From NCBI GenBank assembly GCA_020852275.1, contig JADZBE010000011.1, forward strand, positions 62,001 through 126,000: DNA of 64,000 nt, written 5' to 3'. The stretch's first letter is position 1; each line of letters opens with the position of its first letter. Of the stretch, positions 14,127-60,799 are shown piece by piece. The notes beneath the pieces were generated by a model. The model was not told where the DNA came from, did no database searches, and worked only from the letters and a program-made list of their open reading frames with translations. Both the position numbers and the translations under genes were made by a program. This stretch comes from Phycisphaerales bacterium. Lineage in GTDB: Bacteria > Planctomycetota > Phycisphaerae > UBA1845.

Positions 14127-15305
14127 ATGAAGCGCGTGGGATGGCGAATCCGGATTGCGGGCGGTCGAGCGCTCATGGTCATGGCGGGACTCACGGCGCT
14201 TGCCGCGAGCGTCCTGCCGCGCGCGCTGGGGCAGGAGGCGCCGGCTCAGCAAGCGCCGACGCCGCAATCGCCCGCTCAGCCGCCGCCGACTCCACCGCAG
14301 CCGGCCTCGGGTCAGAAGGTGCCCGCCGCGCTGCAGCCCGGCGCGCTGCCGCGCCACATCACCCCCCAGGCGAAGCAGGCGATCGACAAGGGGCTTGCCT
14401 ACCTGACGCGCATTCAGAACCGTGACGGGTCCTGGGCCAACCGCGCGGGGTCGGAGGGCTTCCCCGTGGCGATGACCGCGCTCTGCGGCGTGGCCCTGCT
14501 GATGGACGGCAACACCACCACGCAGGGGCGCTACGCGGAAAACGTGGATCGCGCCGCGCGGTACATCCTCGCCTCGCAGACGGCGACGGGGCTGATCGCG
14601 CGCGAGACCCTGGAAAGCCGGCCCATGTACGGGCACGGGTTCTCCATGCTCTTCCTCGGCGAGCTTTCGGGCATGGTCGAAAGCCCGCGGCGTCAGCAGG
14701 AGATTCAGGCGGTCCTGAATCGCGCCGTCGTGCTGACGGCGCGAAGCCAAAGTCCGCTGGGCGGCTGGATCTACACGCCGGACTCGCGCGGCGATGAAGG
14801 CTCGGTCACTATTACGCAGGTGCAGGGGCTTCGCTCCTGCCGCAACGGCGGCGTCGAGGTGCCCAAGGATCTCATCGACGAGGCCATGCGCTACCTGGAT
14901 CGCTCTCAGAACCCGGACGGCGGGATGCAGTACACGGCGTCGCGCCCCGGCCCTTCGCGGATCGCGATCACGGCGGCGGCGGCGGCGTGCTGGCTGAACG
15001 CGGGCATGTTCGATGAGCCGCGTCTGAAGCGGGCGATGGACTTCTGCAAGCGCACGATCGGACCGGAGGGCGTGGTCGCGGAGCACTTTTTCTACACGAA
15101 CCTGTACTGGTCGCAGTCGGTGTACCTGTCGAACGACAAGCTCTGGGACGAGTACTTTCCCAAGGTGCGCGACCGGCTGGTGTCCATGCAGAACGGCGAG
15201 GAAGGCTCCTGGCCCGGCGAGGGCATCGGCGAAGTTTACGGCACAACCACCGCGCTGATCATTTTGCAGCTCCCGTACAACCGGCTACCCATCATGCAGC
15301 GGTGA
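14127..15305 (+). CDS. Prenyltransferase/squalene-oxidase repeat secreted protein (second paralog)
   Basis: 392 residues. A signal peptide with basic n-region (MKRVGWRIRIAGGR) and cleavage near ALG-QE is followed by a Pro/Gln/Ala-rich linker to about residue 65. Alpha/alpha-barrel repeats then follow: YLTRIQNRDGSWAN, SQSPLGGWIYTP, DRSQNPDGGMQYT. The family also includes complement C3/alpha-macroglobulin thioester-type and terpene-cyclase barrels. No DxDD or similar catalytic motif is visible. It directly follows the TPR/propeller gene with a 2-base gap, so it is likely translated from the same message and may work with it outside the cytoplasm. It is related in architecture to the protein at 3024. 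Confidence 0.78.
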   Translation: MKRVGWRIRIAGGRALMVMAGLTALAASVLPRALGQEAPAQQAPTPQSPAQPPPTPPQPASGQKVPAALQPGALPRHITPQAKQAIDKGLAYLTRIQNRDGSWANRAGSEGFPVAMTALCGVALLMDGNTTTQGRYAENVDRAARYILASQTATGLIARETLESRPMYGHGFSMLFLGELSGMVESPRRQQEIQAVLNRAVVLTARSQSPLGGWIYTPDSRGDEGSVTITQVQGLRSCRNGGVEVPKDLIDEAMRYLDRSQNPDGGMQYTASRPGPSRIAITAAAAACWLNAGMFDEPRLKRAMDFCKRTIGPEGVVAEHFFYTNLYWSQSVYLSNDKLWDEYFPKVRDRLVSMQNGEEGSWPGEGIGEVYGTTTALIILQLPYNRLPIMQR

Positions 15306-15445
15306 TGGAGCGGGAGCGGATTGAGCAGACAGCGCGTTGAGGGTAGTGTTTGGCAGGCTTGAACGGCCCGTGCGGGTCGGGGCATCGCAGGATCGTGGCG
15401 CGTGCCCCGCAGGACGATACCTTTGAGGATGCGGGAGAGGCTTGT

Positions 15446-16072
15446 TTGAACCGACGCACGTACGTCTTCTCGAGACTGCCGGTCGCGCTGACGGCTCTCG
15501 CCATCAGTTGCGCGCCGGGCGGGCTGCCGGGCGGCAATGACAACTCCAGCGGCGCGAATGACAATTCCGTGGGCGGAGGCAATGGCAATCTCAACGACGC
15601 GCCGCCCGATGCGGACGCCATGCCGGATTTCTCCCTGGTGGATCTGAACCCGGAGTCTCCCCGCCGCGGCGAAGCGATCTCTCCACGCGACTACCTCGGA
15701 GAAGTCTCCGCGTGGTACTTCGGGCACGCGACGTGAGGGTACTGCCGAAGCCAGTTTGGCTTCCTCAACCAGTTGCAGGCCGAGCTTGACGCGGCGGACA
15801 CGCTGCGCCCGATCCACATTCTCGGAATCAACGAGGTCGGTCTGGAATCCGGCAATGAAGGCATGATGGCCGGTCGTGTCCTTCCCTGGCTCCAAGCGAC
15901 CGAAGATGCGGACGTCTGGGCGACGTGGGAAGTGGAGTTCCGCGACGTGGTGATTCTCGATCCGGACAACCACCGTGAAACGGCCTACAACCTCACCGAG
16001 CACGATCTGTCCAACGCGGAGAATTACGAGGCGCTGAAGAACCTTCTGATCGATCTGGCCAACCGTGAATAG
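15446..16072 (+). CDS. Candidate selenocysteine-containing thioredoxin-like lipoprotein (in-frame UGA)
   Basis: 208 residues if the UGA at 15734-15736 is read as selenocysteine; otherwise two fragments. TTG 15446 is the likely start: GGGAGAGG sits 5 bases upstream and a signal peptide with lipobox AISC (Cys22) follows. Residues 23-50 are an NDN-rich tether. The domain then reads EVSAWYFGHAT-U97-G-Y-C100-RSQFGFLNQL, a redox U-x-x-C motif after a beta-strand as in thioredoxin folds, and continues in the same frame for 112 codons (HILGINEVGL, DVVILDPDNH, AYNLTEHDL) to a TAG stop. Bases 15734-15767 fold into a bacterial-SECIS-like hairpin. The alternative is a Cys-to-stop nonsense mutation. Selenocysteine machinery genes are not in the window. 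It follows the cyclase-like gene by 140 bases on the same strand. Confidence 0.72.
15734..15767 (+). promoter_or_regulatory. Putative bacterial SECIS element at the in-frame UGA
   Basis: The upper stem GAAGCC (15747-15752) pairs perfectly with GGCTTC (15758-15763) around a 5-base loop AGTTT with G at its second position. A lower stem TGAG (15734-15737) pairs with CTCA (15764-15767) and includes the UGA itself. There are 16 bases between the UGA and the loop. A small apical loop with G in the first two positions and a distance of roughly 16-37 bases are the known minimal features of bacterial SECIS elements. Confidence 0.65.
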
Positions 16073-16165
16073 GCGGCGAGCGGCGCCGGCACGGGCCTGC
16101 CGGAGATGGGCGTCGCGTTTCGAGGGCGGACAACCGCGCCGTGCGGGCGCAGGACGCCCCTGTTA

Positions 16166-17083
16166 TCAGCGACAGTCGAACGCCCGCCTCCATTCCGCGC
16201 AACCCTCAATCGCCACTTCGCCGTCCGCAACCTGCGCGTCGAAATGCACACGCCCCCGGCCTCCCTTGCGGATGGTCATGCGGCGCTGCTGCTGCCCGTT
16301 CAGGATGGTCAATCGCTTGCCCTCCGGCAACGACGATTCCACGGCGATGCGCAACCGTCCGCGCCGGCAGATCGCACGGAGACCGTCAATGCGGTCGCAC
16401 ACCGTCGCCCAGTGTCCGGCCAGCCGCATGGCGATCAGGACCCGGCCGTAGCCGTGTTCCTCCGTGCTGCGCCAGTCCTGATGCCCGTAGCCTCCTTCGC
16501 CGAGATCCCCGTCGCGTACGTGCGAGGAAGCACCGATCATGTTGAGCGTGGAATCCTCATCTCCCGGTCCGAGCGGTTCGCCAAGGCTGATCCGATAGAA
16601 CCAGTCGCCGCTCTCCGTCGTATCGACGGGTTGCGAGCTGATCCAGTACGAACCTGCCGTCAGGAGGATCGAAAGGTCCGTCACCGTGATCCGTGCGTAG
16701 TAGGGTTCGAACAGCCCGCAGTTCCCCCATTGCCCATCGAAGTCAAGACTCGTCGCCAGGCGCTCGAACACGGGCGGTTCCTGGGGTCGGTGCTCCCGAT
16801 CCGCATAGACGCGCACAAACACGCCATCATGGGGGGGCGTTCCCACAAGGGACATGTAGTCCGCGGTGACGGAATCTATCACCGCCGCACGCTCCAGCTC
16901 GAAGTCATCCGCCAGACGCAGGTCGTGAAGCACGCCGAAGACGCCGCGTCCCGAAAGCGCGTTGCCGAAGCCGTTGTTGTACAAACAGTCGTCCGTCAAC
17001 CATAGAGTGTCGTACAGCACTTCTTCAACCGGTTGCGGCGCGCCCGCCGCCGCGATCATCGCCGCCATCCACATCAGGTTCAC
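16166..17083 (-). CDS. Secreted protein of unknown function, tandem paralog B
   Basis: 305 residues with an N-terminal signal-like segment (MNLMWMAAMIAAAGA). It shares the same architecture with its upstream neighbour at 17176. Common motifs are NNGFGNALSGR, LRLADDFEL, VRVYAD, HVRDGDLGEGGYGHQDWRST and a C-terminal domain ending in a Cys-containing tail (IEGCAEWRRAFDC). The central part resembles a beta-sandwich found in exported planctomycete proteins that report 'LADDF', but I do not assign a family. The C-terminal repeat with RMTIRKGGRGRVHFDAQVADG could be a carbohydrate- or surface-binding module. The pair is transcribed away from moxR and converges on the candidate selenoprotein gene. Confidence 0.75.
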   Translation of the reverse strand: MNLMWMAAMIAAAGAPQPVEEVLYDTLWLTDDCLYNNGFGNALSGRGVFGVLHDLRLADDFELERAAVIDSVTADYMSLVGTPPHDGVFVRVYADREHRPQEPPVFERLATSLDFDGQWGNCGLFEPYYARITVTDLSILLTAGSYWISSQPVDTTESGDWFYRISLGEPLGPGDEDSTLNMIGASSHVRDGDLGEGGYGHQDWRSTEEHGYGRVLIAMRLAGHWATVCDRIDGLRAICRRGRLRIAVESSLPEGKRLTILNGQQQRRMTIRKGGRGRVHFDAQVADGEVAIEGCAEWRRAFDCR

Positions 17084-17175
17084 CGGAAGTCCTCCGTCAC
17101 GTCATCGGCACTCCCAGCCACCTCGCAGCCTCCTGCGTTTCCCAGCCGGACCGGCAGCCCGTCGAGGCTCGAGCC

Positions 17176-18084
17176 TCAGGGGCAGTCGAAAAACTGCGTC
17201 CATTCCGGACAGCTTTCGATCGTCACTTCGCCGTCCGCAACCTGACCGTCGAAATGCACGCGCCCGCGACCGTCCTTGCGGATGGTCATTCGCCGGTGCT
17301 GCGGGCCGTTGAAGACGGTCAACTTCTTGTCTTCGGGGAGCGAGGATTCGACTTCGACCCTCAGGCGCCCGCCGCTGCAAACAGCGCTGAGCGATTCGAT
17401 TCGGTCGCAGACCGTCGCCCAGCGGCCGGTGAGCCGCATCGCGGAGGTCGCGTGACCCAGATCATGTTCCTGTGTACTGCGCCAATCCTGGTGCCCCCAG
17501 CCGCCTTTACCCAGATCCCCGTCGCGCACATGGGCGGAAGCGCCGAAGCCCAGCGTCGCGTCTTGCGGACCTTCATATTCGGAGATCGCGGTTTGGTAAT
17601 ACCAATCACCGTTCTCACTCATATCAACCGGTTGCATGCACATCCAATACCGTCCGGCGGGCAACTCAAGCGAGAGACCGCGGGCGGTGAACCGCGTGAT
17701 GCAGAATTGCCAGCCGCATTGCGGCCAGTTTGACAAGTCTTCAAACTCAAAGTCGGCCACCCACTGCTCGTAGAGAGGCGGCTCCTGGGGACTTCCGTTG
17801 TGGTCCGCGTACACGCGCACGAGCAGTTGCTCGCACAGGGTCGTGCAGAAGGAGAGGTAATCCGCGGTCGCGTCCTCGATCACCGCCGCGCGCGGAAGCG
17901 CGAAGTCATCCGCAAGCCGCAGGTCGTAAAGATCTCCAAGGACAGCGCGCCCCGAGAGGGCATTGCCAAAACCGTTATTGAAGTCGCAAGAGTCCGTCAT
18001 CCAGGTCGTGTCGTAAAACGTTTCCTCCGAGGGTTGTCCAGACAGCACCGCGAGAAACGCGAGGTTTGCGATTACCAGCATCAT
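17176..18084 (-). CDS. Secreted protein of unknown function, tandem paralog A
   Basis: 302 residues with a signal peptide (MMLVIANLAFLAVLSGQPS). It aligns along its whole length with the protein at 16166: NNGFGNALSGRAV, DLRLADDFALPRAAVI, VRVYADHNGSPQEPPLYE, GHQDWRSTQEH, RMTIRKDGRGRVHFDGQVADG. The two genes are separated by 92 bases and share direction, so they arose by tandem duplication and are probably cotranscribed with this one first. Several Cys residues in the middle (FCTTLCEQ, CGWQFCI) may form disulfides, consistent with export. The function is unknown. Confidence 0.78.
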   Translation of the reverse strand: MMLVIANLAFLAVLSGQPSEETFYDTTWMTDSCDFNNGFGNALSGRAVLGDLYDLRLADDFALPRAAVIEDATADYLSFCTTLCEQLLVRVYADHNGSPQEPPLYEQWVADFEFEDLSNWPQCGWQFCITRFTARGLSLELPAGRYWMCMQPVDMSENGDWYYQTAISEYEGPQDATLGFGASAHVRDGDLGKGGWGHQDWRSTQEHDLGHATSAMRLTGRWATVCDRIESLSAVCSGGRLRVEVESSLPEDKKLTVFNGPQHRRMTIRKDGRGRVHFDGQVADGEVTIESCPEWTQFFDCP

Positions 18085-18437
18085 GCGACTACCCCCTCAC
18101 CTCGACCCGCGCGCGGGCGTGGCCGCGTCGAAAACGGCGAGATCACCACTCGGACGGCGTACCCGATCGGCTTGCAAGTCGGCCAAGCGCGATTCCTGCC
18201 GGGCGCCGGCGCCGCCGGAATAACGGGGCGAGATTTCAGTTCTGTCAGGTGGACGGCTTCGGACGGGCGCTCCCGCACAGACGCCGGTGGCGGGTCATGG
18301 CCCGTCGCAAGCACCTTGACTTCGGGGGTGCATGATACCACGATCGGTTGTGTGGAGGCAAGACGCGAGACGATTTCACGCTGTGGCAGGAGGGGGGTCG
18401 CCCCCACGGTCCGCGCAAGTCGCAGGGAACAATACCG
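18085..18437. other. Divergent intergenic region before the Bat-like operon
   Basis: About 350 bases between the divergent secreted-protein pair and moxR. No gene or clear promoter motif was recognised. It must contain the promoters of both transcription units. Confidence 0.45.
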
Positions 18438-52134: not shown

Positions 52135-52180
52135 GGAGGGACTCGAACCCTCGGCCTTCTGATCCACAGTCAGACGCTCT
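52135..52180. repeat. Left 46-bp attachment-site repeat (displaced 3' half of tRNA-His)
   Basis: Identical over 46 bases to 60733-60778 inside the intact tRNA-His gene. It covers the anticodon-loop to T-arm region on the minus strand. The flanking acceptor bases differ at two positions (52132 A/G and 52134 G/A relative to the right copy). It therefore represents the original tRNA 3' half pushed away by integration. Confidence 0.93.
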
Positions 52181-52227
52181 GCCTGAAAAAACCGCATTCT
52201 CGACCCAAAGAACGGGGGTTGCCGAAA

Positions 52228-55871: not shown

Positions 55872-56096
55872 ATGGAGAAAAACGTGCTGATCGAATCATA
55901 CCGAACCCCGACACCATCGACAACCATTCGGGGATTTCAATGCAGTTTTTGCGAGAAACCGTACCCGTGGAGCGCGCACGGCGGCGGTTCCCGCACGGCG
56001 CGCTATTGCGATATCTGCGCCTGGTTCTTGGAACTTGCGGCGCGTGGAGACAAGGTTGCGGCACTCGACGCACTTTTCAGGGGTTTCCCGAAGTGA
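55872..56096 (+). CDS. Small CxxC...CxxC (zinc-binding) protein
   Basis: 74 residues from ATG 55872. Two CxxC pairs (CSFCEKPYPWS and CDICAWFLELA) suggest one zinc-knuckle. GTG 55884 is an alternative start. The stop overlaps the primase-helicase GTG start (GTGA), so the genes are coupled. A DNA- or protein-binding accessory to replication is plausible. Confidence 0.65.
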   Translation: MEKNVLIESYRTPTPSTTIRGFQCSFCEKPYPWSAHGGGSRTARYCDICAWFLELAARGDKVAALDALFRGFPK

Positions 56097-57892
56097 CCAC
56101 CACCTGCGCACACCAGCTCGTGGGGTTCGCATCATGCGTTTTCGACGGGGCGGATATCGTCGAGGTGCGGCGGTTGCACGAGATGCGGCGCGGTGGGATT
56201 TCCACGTGGCATCGCGCGGATGAACTGCACACACTCGCGGACGCGCTTGCATCGGACAACGCCCGTGGTGAACAGCTCTACATCGGGGCGAACCCGCGCA
56301 ACCGTCACGGCGGGACGAAGGCGGCGGACGTGGCGCTCGCCCGATGCGTGTTCGCGGATTTCGACGGCGTGAGCGTCGAGGAAGCCCACGATCGGATCGA
56401 AGCGGCGCGGCTGCCCGCGCCGACGCTGATACTTTTCTCGGGGCACGGGGTACACGCCTATTGGCGGCTGGCGGAACCGATCACCGACCCTGCGTTCTGG
56501 ACGCACGTCCAGCGGCGACTTGCAATAGCGCTCGATTCCGATCCCGCCGTGAAAGACGCGCCGCGCATCATGCGGCTTCCCGGATTCCTGAATCTAAAAG
56601 ACCCTTCGCGCCCGGTGCAAGCCGAGATTATCGAAGCCGATCCGTCGCGCGTCTGCGAGCTGGCCGACATTTTCGATCACCTGCCCGAAGCTGAGGAAGC
56701 GCGACCCCAACGCGCCGCGCAAGCCGATGCGACTCCCCGTAGTGTCAACACGCTGGCAGCTATGGCCAAGGCCGCTAACTACGCGGCGAAGTGGGAACCG
56801 GTCGCGCAAGGGGGGCGCAACCCGGCGGCGCTTCGGCACGCGGCGCAGCTTACCCGTGATTTCGCGCTGACGGATGATGAAGCCTTACCCCTACTTCGCG
56901 CGTGGAACTCACAAAACTCCCCGCCGTTGGACGAGGGGGAATTGTTGGAATGTCTGCACAACGGGAGGAAGTATGGTCAACGCGAGTACGGCTCGAAAGC
57001 CCCACCGACGGATTCGCTTCCCGCTCAAGGCCCGCCGTGGTGGAGTCTGGATGAAGTAGTGAAGATGCCAGAATATCGGCACGGACTGGAAGCGGTTTCA
57101 AGCGGCTTTCATCGGATCAATGCGATACTCGGCGGCGGATTCCGGCGACAGATGACCTACGTTCTGGGCGGGCGCACGGGCGGCGCGAAGTCGGCGCTCG
57201 TGGCCAACATCGCGCGACGCGCGGCGCTGGACGGCGCGCCCGTACTCTACTTCAAGCTGGAGGAATCCATCCGTGAAGCCGTCTACCGGCTACACGCGAT
57301 CACGGCACAAGTGGACCTGCGCGTTTTGCTCGACGGAATAGCGAATGCAAGCGCGGATGATCGCGCGAAACTATTGGATGCGTGGCAACTACTCCGCGCG
57401 CTTCCGATTATGGTGAGCGACCGGCGCGCGATCGGTTCGATCATGCGAATCATCGGCGAATGGTCGAAAGCCGGGGGCAAGCTGGTATTGCTGGACCAGC
57501 TCTCCCAAGTCGAGACCGACGCGGAAGTCGGCTTCCAACATGCAACCCTTGTGAGCGGCGCGCTTCGGCGGGCGGCGTGCGACTTCAACTTGCCCATCGT
57601 CATCGTGTCGCAAGTCAACCGACCGGCGGCGGCGAACAAGTCGAAAGAGCTGAGCGCGCACGACCTGCGCGATTCGGGGATGCTGGAGAATGACCCGGCG
57701 GCGGTGTTGCTGATCGACAAGGCGCGCGATCCGACGGGACCGCAGTACGGACCGGCGATGAAGTTGCTTCAGCTTGTCGTGGGGAAGAATCGCTACGGAC
57801 CGCTGACGAAGCCGGGCGATCCGATCGAGCTGGCATGGTGGCCGGAGAGCGGGCGCGTTGAGGACGTGGCACTCGTGGAGGCCGTGGCATGA
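56093..57892 (+). CDS. Primase-polymerase / DnaB-like helicase fusion
   Basis: 599 residues from GTG 56093. The N-terminal half looks like an archaeo-eukaryotic primase-type domain: ARCVFADFDGVSVEEA, LFSGHGVHAYWRLAEP, then DAPRIMRLPGFLNLKDP, a set seen in phage and plasmid primases. The C-terminal half from about residue 340 is a RecA-fold DnaB/RepA-like helicase: VLGGRTGGAKSALVANIA (P-loop with Ala in place of the second Gly of GK[ST]), KLVLLDQLSQVE (Walker B-like) and PIVIVSQVNRPA. Such fusions replicate satellite elements and plasmids. It overlaps the previous and following genes by four bases. This implies the element can replicate itself. Confidence 0.87.
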   Translation: MTTTCAHQLVGFASCVFDGADIVEVRRLHEMRRGGISTWHRADELHTLADALASDNARGEQLYIGANPRNRHGGTKAADVALARCVFADFDGVSVEEAHDRIEAARLPAPTLILFSGHGVHAYWRLAEPITDPAFWTHVQRRLAIALDSDPAVKDAPRIMRLPGFLNLKDPSRPVQAEIIEADPSRVCELADIFDHLPEAEEARPQRAAQADATPRSVNTLAAMAKAANYAAKWEPVAQGGRNPAALRHAAQLTRDFALTDDEALPLLRAWNSQNSPPLDEGELLECLHNGRKYGQREYGSKAPPTDSLPAQGPPWWSLDEVVKMPEYRHGLEAVSSGFHRINAILGGGFRRQMTYVLGGRTGGAKSALVANIARRAALDGAPVLYFKLEESIREAVYRLHAITAQVDLRVLLDGIANASADDRAKLLDAWQLLRALPIMVSDRRAIGSIMRIIGEWSKAGGKLVLLDQLSQVETDAEVGFQHATLVSGALRRAACDFNLPIVIVSQVNRPAAANKSKELSAHDLRDSGMLENDPAAVLLIDKARDPTGPQYGPAMKLLQLVVGKNRYGPLTKPGDPIELAWWPESGRVEDVALVEAVA

Positions 57893-59108: not shown

Positions 59109-59319
59109 GGAGGTTATGAACCTTATCGGATCGTTGAAAACGGCGGCTCGCAAGAGCGGGATGAGCATGAATGAAATATCGAGGCGGACGGGGCTGGCGT
59201 ACCAGATTGTTCACGGCTTCCTGAAGGGCGAGCGGGATATCGCTATTTCATCGGCGGTGAAGCTGGCGGACGTGCTGGACCTGGAGCTGCGCCCGAAGGC
59301 AACGAAAGGGGGCAAGTAA
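59092..59319 (+). CDS. XRE/Cro-type helix-turn-helix regulator
   Basis: 75 residues from ATG 59092; ATG 59107 and 59116 are also possible. The helix-turn-helix is SGMSMNEISRRTGLAYQIVHGFLKGERDIAISSAVKLADVL, typical of Cro/CI-like repressors. The stop overlaps the integrase start by one base (TAATG), so regulator and integrase are cotranslated. It likely controls excision or its own promoter. Confidence 0.87.
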   Translation: MNGDIMEVMNLIGSLKTAARKSGMSMNEISRRTGLAYQIVHGFLKGERDIAISSAVKLADVLDLELRPKATKGGK

Positions 59320-60788
59320 TGCGGCGATCGAAGGGCACGTTGTATCGACCCGTGACGGTGCGGAACGTCGGCGGGCGGAAGGTGAAGCGCAAGGCCGCGT
59401 TCTACTGGGCGCGGTACACCGATGCGGCTGGCGCGAAGCGAAACCATGCGCTGACCCTGCCCGACGGCGAATCGCGGATCACCTACAAGGACGTGGCACG
59501 CTCGGCGCTGGACGCGATCCTGAAGCGCGTCGAGCGCGAATCCGCCGGGCTGATCGACCGCACGGTGGAGGCGGCGCGGACGCCGATGCGGAAGGTGCTG
59601 GCGGACTACGCTCGATACCTGCGGCGGAAGGCCGTGAGCCGAACGCATTTGAAGCAGACGGTCCAAGTCGGCAAGTGGTTCATCGAACACGCCGAGATAG
59701 CACGGATAGCGGACCTGACGGAAGAGCGCATCGACAAGGCCCTGGGCAGGCTGGCGGACTCGGGGCGCTCCGCGCGGACGTGCAACCTGTACCGGTCGCT
59801 CCTGCACTCGCTCTGTCGATACGCGATCCGGCACGCCAAACTCTTGACCTTCAATCCAGTCGAAGCCGTTGCACTTCGATCCGGCAAAACCGATACCCGG
59901 AAATCGCGCCGGGCGCTCACCGTCGATGAAGCAACGCGGCTCTTGAATGTCGCGGGAGGACGGCGGGACTTCTACTGCGTCCAGCTTTGGGCTGGGCTTC
60001 GCGTCGGCGAAGTGGCGGCGCTCGAATGGCGGGATGTTGAACTCGCGGGCGACCGACCGGCGATCCGGCTCCGGGCGGAAGCGACCAAGGCCAAGCGCGC
60101 CGACGTGCTGCCCCTGCATCCCGGCTTGCGGGACGTGCTGGCGACGATGCGTGAAGCCGTCCCGTTCGCCAAGCCGACGGACCGCGTGTTCGATTCGACG
60201 CCCACGCTTCGCACGTTCAAGCTGGACCTGGACCGCGCGGCGATCACCTGGCGCAAGGCCGACCATGACGACAACGCGAGCATCGACCGGCACGCCCTGC
60301 GGACCACGTTCGTAAGCTGGCTTGAAGCGGCGGGGGTGACGGGCACGGCCAAGCGCGTCCTGGCGCGCCACGCGGCGGTAGGCGTCACGGAGCGGCATTA
60401 CACGGACGCCCGGCTCCTGAACCTGTGGACGGAGATTGCAAAGCTCCCAGCGGTCCCGCGTGCGGCCGAAACGGCATCCCTGAAAGCGACGGGGACGGAA
60501 GGAAGGGCGACCGGAAGGGGAGTTATCCCATCCCGGCAACCGGCTTCCCCCCGCGTGCGTGCGCGAGGAAATCCCGTTGCACTGCCCGTTGCACTCCCGG
60601 TTGCACTTCACAACGGCATTCGGGGGGTAAACGTGGCATTTAGCGGCATGATGGGCGGAAGTGCCAGCATCGTGGCACAAGGCGAAAATCCCGAGAAAAC
60701 CCGCGATTTTCCGCAAAAAAACGACTACCGGAGGAGGGACTCGAACCCTCGGCCTTCTGATCCACAGTCAGACGCTCTAACCAACTGA
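59319..60788 (+). CDS. Tyrosine site-specific integrase
   Basis: 489 residues. A SAM-like core-binding region lies at about 90-170. The catalytic domain shows LWAGLRVGEVAALEWRDV (Arg I), HALRTTFVSWLE (H-x-x-R) and LARHAAVGVTERHYTDA (His and nucleophile Tyr), so the R-H-R-H-Y set is present. The C-terminal tail of about 100 residues is unusual. It includes ALPVALPVAL encoded by the arm-type repeats, and its last codons (RPSDPQSDALTN) run into the antisense of the tRNA. It integrates the element at tRNA-His. Confidence 0.94.
   Translation: MRRSKGTLYRPVTVRNVGGRKVKRKAAFYWARYTDAAGAKRNHALTLPDGESRITYKDVARSALDAILKRVERESAGLIDRTVEAARTPMRKVLADYARYLRRKAVSRTHLKQTVQVGKWFIEHAEIARIADLTEERIDKALGRLADSGRSARTCNLYRSLLHSLCRYAIRHAKLLTFNPVEAVALRSGKTDTRKSRRALTVDEATRLLNVAGGRRDFYCVQLWAGLRVGEVAALEWRDVELAGDRPAIRLRAEATKAKRADVLPLHPGLRDVLATMREAVPFAKPTDRVFDSTPTLRTFKLDLDRAAITWRKADHDDNASIDRHALRTTFVSWLEAAGVTGTAKRVLARHAAVGVTERHYTDARLLNLWTEIAKLPAVPRAAETASLKATGTEGRATGRGVIPSRQPASPRVRARGNPVALPVALPVALHNGIRGVNVAFSGMMGGSASIVAQGENPEKTRDFPQKNDYRRRDSNPRPSDPQSDALTN
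60573..60606. promoter_or_regulatory. Right candidate integrase arm-type sites
   Basis: CCCG(G)TTGCAC at 60573-60582, 60585-60594 and 60596-60606, within the 3' end of the integrase gene. Same sequence and orientation as the left set at 52228-52277. Confidence 0.55.
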
Positions 60789-60799
60789 GCTACCCCGGC
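60726..60799 (-). tRNA. tRNA-His (anticodon GTG)
   Basis: The 74-base cloverleaf reads GCCGGGG acceptor, GCTC/GAGC D-stem, anticodon stem TCTGA/TCAGA with loop CTGTGGA (anticodon GTG), variable AGGCC, T-arm GAGGG-TTCGAGT-CCCTC, acceptor CTCCGGT and discriminator A. No CCA is encoded. The base before position 1 is T, so the usual G(-1):C73 pair of tRNA-His is not encoded. The 3' part is supplied by the integrated element. Confidence 0.92.

Follow-up and report, generated by a model that had tools for sequence, protein, structure and literature searches.

Selenoproteins that carry selenocysteine (Sec) as the first residue of a UxxC-type motif are already described; a Prx-like thiol:disulfide oxidoreductase, a redoxin family protein and TlpA-like UGC have this arrangement, with a thioredoxin-like fold and a bacterial SECIS element (bSECIS) directly downstream of the UGA (PMC13188914). 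The protein considered here, encoded in a 64,000-nucleotide stretch of Phycisphaerales DNA (the window), resembles them in each of these respects, but neither its TUGYCR motif nor its family, NF053656, is among the 119 prokaryotic selenoprotein families and subfamilies of that inventory of May 2026 (PMC13188914). The closest described structures are those of the ResA/TlpA/CcmG type (PDB 1su9, 3gl3 and 2b1k) and of the pneumococcal lipoprotein thioredoxins Etrx1/2 (4hqs and 4hqz), which share with the window protein a redox pair spaced by two residues and, as predicted for the latter, anchoring outside the cytoplasm.

The family is itself recorded in NCBIfam release 20.0 (June 2026) as NF053656, redoxin_TUGYCR, "TUGYCR motif thioredoxin fold (seleno)protein". 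The window protein scored 225.5 bits against a cut-off of 100 and spanned profile positions 1-145 of 146, and given this full domain match, the same TUGYCR motif and no separating feature that we could find, it is a member. The library entry gives no function, and none of the papers searched contains the name TUGYCR. Because NF053656 matches while both the literature and the 119-family inventory omit TUGYCR, the family is one known to curators and, as far as we found, undescribed in papers; the initial annotation, which had announced a candidate new selenoprotein, therefore overstated its novelty. Judged by its sequence, the gene is a real, conserved selenoprotein gene, one more member of a family that was catalogued only very recently.

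Computation shows a conserved UGA, a covarying hairpin, a complete Sec machinery, the fold, and homologues with cysteine in place of Sec. The explanation that we hold with high confidence is that the gene encodes an exported, lipid-anchored TUGYCR selenoprotein, a UxxC redoxin in which the UGA would be decoded as Sec through SelB and the hairpin.

Reading frame, conserved UGA and Sec machinery

The gene (15446-16072, plus strand) is open from a TTG start to a TAG stop except for a single in-frame TGA at 15734-15736, which sits within HAT-U-GYC, so that the predicted protein of 208 residues carries the motif T96-U97-G98-Y99-C100-R101. The annotation's claim that the frame runs on past the TGA to a true TAG stop was borne out: 111 sense codons, with no frameshift, separate the TGA from the TAG at 16070-16072. 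A Shine-Dalgarno-like GGGAGAGG may lie 5' of the TTG, at approximately 15430-15437; scanning the flanks for promoters and terminators yielded no useful result. Standard ORF calling cuts the gene at the UGA into ORFs 15350-15736 and 15773-16072, and because such calling splits at UGA, TUGYCR genes are lost or miscalled as pseudogenes.

In GC-rich DNA with many spurious ORFs an open frame is by itself little proof. Relatives across the phylum, however, retain about 41-61% identity both before and after the TGA, and by this comparison the reading frame is far beyond chance. We aligned 19 redox-competent members from 18 genomes of the phylum, the window's own counted among them, and found TGA at the Sec97 column in all 19; the other members are 42-61% identical to that of the window. 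At that codon, five natural homologues from Planctomycetaceae/Pirellulaceae (L074-L078) read TGT or TGC; the contig scan for these relied on a peptide pattern built on Cys codons and hence covers Cys forms only. They are 44-50% identical in the domain, contain C-x-Y-C and all match NF053656, but differ in having TGT/TGC for TGA, in the absence of the SECIS hairpin, and in that their domain stands at the C-terminus of large proteins. These named relatives, together with the style of the proteins, place the organism very probably in the Planctomycetota. The annotation had placed the TGA at the first Cys of a CxxC, residue 97, and the alignment, with Sec-UGA or Cys at that residue, agrees. Since the Cys forms fall within the Sec sequences, beside the Sec form L039, in an unrooted tree of modest support, the tree suggests that the Cys form derived from the Sec form.

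The homologue search found the family in 15 of 392 genomes of the phylum, and within the class sample members scored above the cut-off in 5 of 298; among the viral contigs and plasmids searched there were no relatives. Only two intact members lack the TGA. Each is the N-terminal half of a tandem two-domain protein (L010 and L012, in G063 and G212) in which the motif of the first domain has decayed to TS(L/I)YA and the second domain keeps U-x-x-C. A third TUGYCR-like copy in G212 (L018, on C669) is seemingly broken at the motif, with the frame disturbed just before CRSQLGYL; this TGA-less match was left out of the homologue count.

It could be proposed that this strain acquired the TGA by mutation of a Cys codon and that the gene is now a decaying nonsense pseudogene. 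The existence of Cys homologues would fit such a history, as would the absence of the gene from the other three genomes sampled in the genus, which marks it as dispensable. However, the same TGA recurs in another 18 homologues from the phylum, the frame is intact on both sides, and the hairpin has been maintained through compensatory changes. The occurrence of TGA at one codon in all 19 redox-competent homologues means that it is no nonsense mutation, and with the shared TGA and the hairpin covariation we rejected the pseudogene, whose probability we regard as negligible. The annotation had itself named a Cys codon in homologues with decay downstream in this strain as the finding that would point to a pseudogene; what we found is a shared TGA in an intact frame.

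The genome also contains what is needed to decode the codon. An ORF of 658 aa on contig 31 scored 316.8 bits as SelB, the overlapping gene on the same contig encodes SelA (564 bits, ORF of 483 aa), and a tRNA-Sec of 95 nt with anticodon UCA is present. SelD (L119, on contig C38 of G000) has an in-frame TGA of its own, in SCAGUAGK, and because of it is probably a selenoprotein itself; the hairpin downstream of that TGA is unlike the TUGYCR SECIS. Thus the selA, selB, selD and tRNA-Sec genes that the annotation suggested seeking were all found, and the lack of sel genes that it took to indicate a pseudogene does not obtain. All of the computational checks that it suggested favoured its reading. 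Beyond the window's genome, SelA was detected in 16 of 18 Sec-carrying genomes (in G280 only a fragment, where a contig ends), the two without a match being G396, a draft with selB near a contig end, and G212, a 77%-complete draft.

An open frame alone cannot identify the residue inserted, and for this reason we considered whether the TGA is read as some other amino acid, by a reassigned code or by leaky near-cognate read-through. TGA is an ordinary stop here, terminating the neighbouring upstream gene (15303-15305), the Sec machinery and tRNA-Sec are encoded in the genome, the hairpin conforms to the bSECIS model, and the site aligns with Cys in homologues. On these grounds decoding as anything other than Sec seems highly improbable, and Sec is retained as the residue predicted at position 97.

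A SECIS hairpin conserved by covariation

The candidate bacterial SECIS element occupies 15747-15763 and consists of a 5' arm GAAGCC (15747-15752), a loop AGTTT (15753-15757) and a 3' arm GGCTTC (15758-15763). The published bSECIS model calls for a loop of 3-9 nt, a stem of 4-16 bp, a G at one of the first two positions of the loop, a distance of 16-37 nt from the UGA and a minimum free energy of at most -7.5. With its AGUUU loop starting 16 nt past the UGA, a G at loop position 2, a 6-bp stem and an energy of -9.0 to -10.0, the window hairpin agrees with this model.

The 6-bp upper stem with its AGTTT loop, as first annotated, is thus present, and it is conserved by covariation among relatives. 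The 4-bp lower stem annotated with it, which includes the UGA, can form (UGAG/CUCA, 15734-15737 with 15764-15767; -10.0 kcal/mol together with the upper hairpin), but it is weakly supported, with 87.5% of cells paired and one double change. RNAfold, which the annotation had proposed to run, gives as its optimum a rival register, GCCGAA/UUUGGC with a 6-bp lower stem, at -12.9. In the window RNA the conserved hairpin and this register each make up about half of the ensemble, and the equal probability of the competing register in the window's own RNA counts against the explanation that we favour. Given that the two registers share the ensemble, energy alone would miss the right hairpin, and it is comparison with relatives that picks it.

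Across 18 distinct sequences the hairpin was paired in 93.5% of cells, whereas slid registers paired in at most 48%. Double-change cells numbered 28 against 8.3 in shuffles, and the covariation score was 0.662 against 0.203, a value reached by 0 of 500 shuffles. All sequences have a fully paired hairpin except L002, L005 and L007, which retain the upper pairs and the loop. In a covariance model built with the window and its closest relatives excluded, the window site scored 53.4 bits and was the sole match genome-wide; the model is now ready for finding more TUGYCR members.

Given that the peptide is conserved around the UGA, it was not unreasonable to consider that the hairpin signal is a mere by-product of that peptide. 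Consistent with this, folding energies compared sequence by sequence with synonymous controls were only mildly lower (p 0.02-0.65), the mildness arising because synonymous variants of the TUGYCR peptide fold too, and we used the multi-sequence covariation test in place of per-sequence energy. The synonymous third bases, however, follow their pairing partners. In every one of the 18 distinct sequences the Gly/Asp codon at +8 has a wobble base complementary to base 2 of codon +5 (Ser AGC-GGC, Asp GAC-GGT, Val GTC-GGA, Ala GCC-GGG), a pattern visible without any statistics. In 14 of the 18, codon +4 ends in a base that pairs with base 2 of codon +9 (p 2e-5, permutation within the same amino acid). 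The residues encoded at +5 and +9 downstream of Sec also change together as base pairing requires, Ser/Ile occurring with Phe/Tyr/Ser and Asp/Val/Ala with His/Arg, and in one case Asp with Ser through a G-U pair. The Cys homologues, with a similar peptide, form merely 2-4 of the 6 pairs. On the permutation test we rejected a peptide by-product, which we consider very improbable, and retain a SECIS element as the favoured reading of the hairpin. It provides a clear case of an RNA signal within a gene that co-determines amino acids.

Fold, anchoring and redox chemistry

AlphaFold2 prediction with six sequences gave a thioredoxin fold (pLDDT 91.6, pTM 0.87) for the TlpA/ResA-like domain encoded by 15620-16069, in which model residue 48, equivalent to Sec97, lies immediately N-terminal of the first long helix (49-67). 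A sequence search of solved structures returned no relative. By structure (Foldseek/VIA) ResA and proteins of the DsbE/TlpA type matched best, at Z about 17; next came pneumococcal lipoprotein thioredoxins and peroxiredoxins, the last of these at Z about 15. The ResA/TlpA/CcmG and Etrx1/2 structures align over 126-137 residues with Z of 15-17 and rmsd of 2.1-2.6; they differ in that identity is about 14-20%, that the window protein has Sec for the first Cys, and that it appears to hold Arg-Asp at the cis-Pro position.

Ahead of the domain, 15446-15511 would encode a signal peptide that ends in a lipobox-like LAISC (Cys22), and 15512-15616 a Gly/Asn/Asp-rich linker (GGNDNSSGANDNSVGGGNGNLND) that may serve as a tether. 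The lipobox proposed in the annotation, LAISC after the predicted signal peptide, is taken alone a weak match to the consensus [LVI][ASTVI][GAS]C, with Ala at -3. Several simple unfused relatives have good boxes (LFGC, LIGC, LLGC and IPAC), those of L040, L042, L043 and L005 being better than that of the window, and other relatives have an N-terminal helical fusion. One relative, L039 (contig 51 of G396, with a second copy on contig 103), has a PEP-CTERM-like C-terminal sorting signal in place of a lipobox. Because relatives show lipoboxes, helical fusions or this tail, anchoring outside the cytoplasm appears to recur in the family. The TTG start of the signal peptide and the Ala at -3 count against the favoured explanation.

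We infer Sec insertion and export, and likewise a substrate and an electron donor. In the mechanism that we propose, SelB would bind the hairpin at 15747-15763 and deliver Sec-tRNA-Sec (UCA) to the UGA at 15734-15736, and export and lipidation would place the protein at work outside the cytoplasm. The U-x-x-C redox pair would consist of Sec97 and Cys100, placed at the N-terminal end of helix 1 in a TlpA/ResA-type fold; Sec97 would attack an oxidised substrate and Cys100 would resolve the selenenylsulfide. The protein is, from its sequence and model, very probably an exported lipoprotein selenol-disulfide oxidoreductase, the other candidate role being that of a peroxide-reducing redoxin.

That other role, a selenoprotein acting mainly as a peroxiredoxin-like peroxidase rather than a disulfide reductase, we regard as unlikely on balance, yet it is a serious alternative to disulfide exchange because the cis-Pro position seems to be occupied by Arg-Asp. 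By strand order in the model this position, ahead of the fourth core strand, would be R166-D167, with D167 invariant, although residue-level comparison with remote redoxins of the class is ambiguous; an Arg there may recall peroxiredoxins. Peroxiredoxins also align structurally, and the nearest Pfam families, AhpC-TSA and SCO1-SenC, were both below their cut-offs (AhpC-TSA 15.3 bits against 26, E 0.02). Against a peroxidase stand the top-scoring ResA/TlpA-type thiol-disulfide oxidoreductases and the UxxC itself, which is a disulfide-exchange arrangement. The peroxidatic motif PxxxT/SxxC is absent from FGHATUGYC, which has no Pro and has Sec where Thr is expected. Disulfide exchange is the role that we prefer. 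The protein adds a well-supported selenoprotein, predicted to act outside the cytoplasm, to a phylum for which descriptions of the selenoproteome are sparse.

Genomic setting and spread of the gene

The selenoprotein gene lies between a squalene-cyclase-like gene that ends at 15305 and a MoxR gene that starts at about 18438. The order PQQ/TPR, squalene-cyclase-like, MoxR, DUF58, BatA is uninterrupted in seven related genomes, of which three belong to the same genus, and only about 75-390 bases separate the cyclase-like and MoxR matches there. Since the operon is contiguous in these genomes, the window carries an insertion of about 3.1 kb (15306-18437), which holds the selenoprotein gene and two genes on the opposite strand. 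Its position in this insertion within a conserved operon marks the gene, as far as gene order can tell, as accessory, and it was probably acquired. The two opposite-strand genes (16166-17083 and 17176-18084, both minus) are tandem and diverged, with about 72-80% DNA identity in blocks, and their products of about 300 aa are apparently secreted and have no Pfam match.

Other carriers have the TUGYCR gene at different loci with neighbours that are not shared; at five further carriers' loci no conserved gene neighbour, and none that would name a partner or substrate, was found within about 3-4 kb, a result that weighs against the favoured explanation. A broader reading, which we offer tentatively as falling just short of an even chance, is that the TUGYCR proteins make up a family of selenoproteins, anchored at the cell surface and so far undescribed, whose centre is a single phylum (very probably Planctomycetota). 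Within it Sec would be ancestral and Cys derived, the SECIS would constrain the protein, and the gene would spread between loci as a single-gene accessory. Under that reading the residues at +5 and +9 would co-change because their codons must pair in a SECIS that lies inside the redox helix.

Elsewhere in the window, minus-strand features at 52136-52193 and 60726-60799 comprise a complete tRNA-His (GTG) and, 8.6 kb away in the same orientation, about 43 nt that repeat its 3' portion identically. Between them are encoded a tyrosine recombinase (59319-60788, plus strand; Pfam Phage_integrase) and a RepB-primase/DnaB-helicase protein (55940-57892, plus strand), and the region of 52.1-60.8 kb has the look of an element that integrated at tRNA-His, with attachment sites in that gene and its partial copy.
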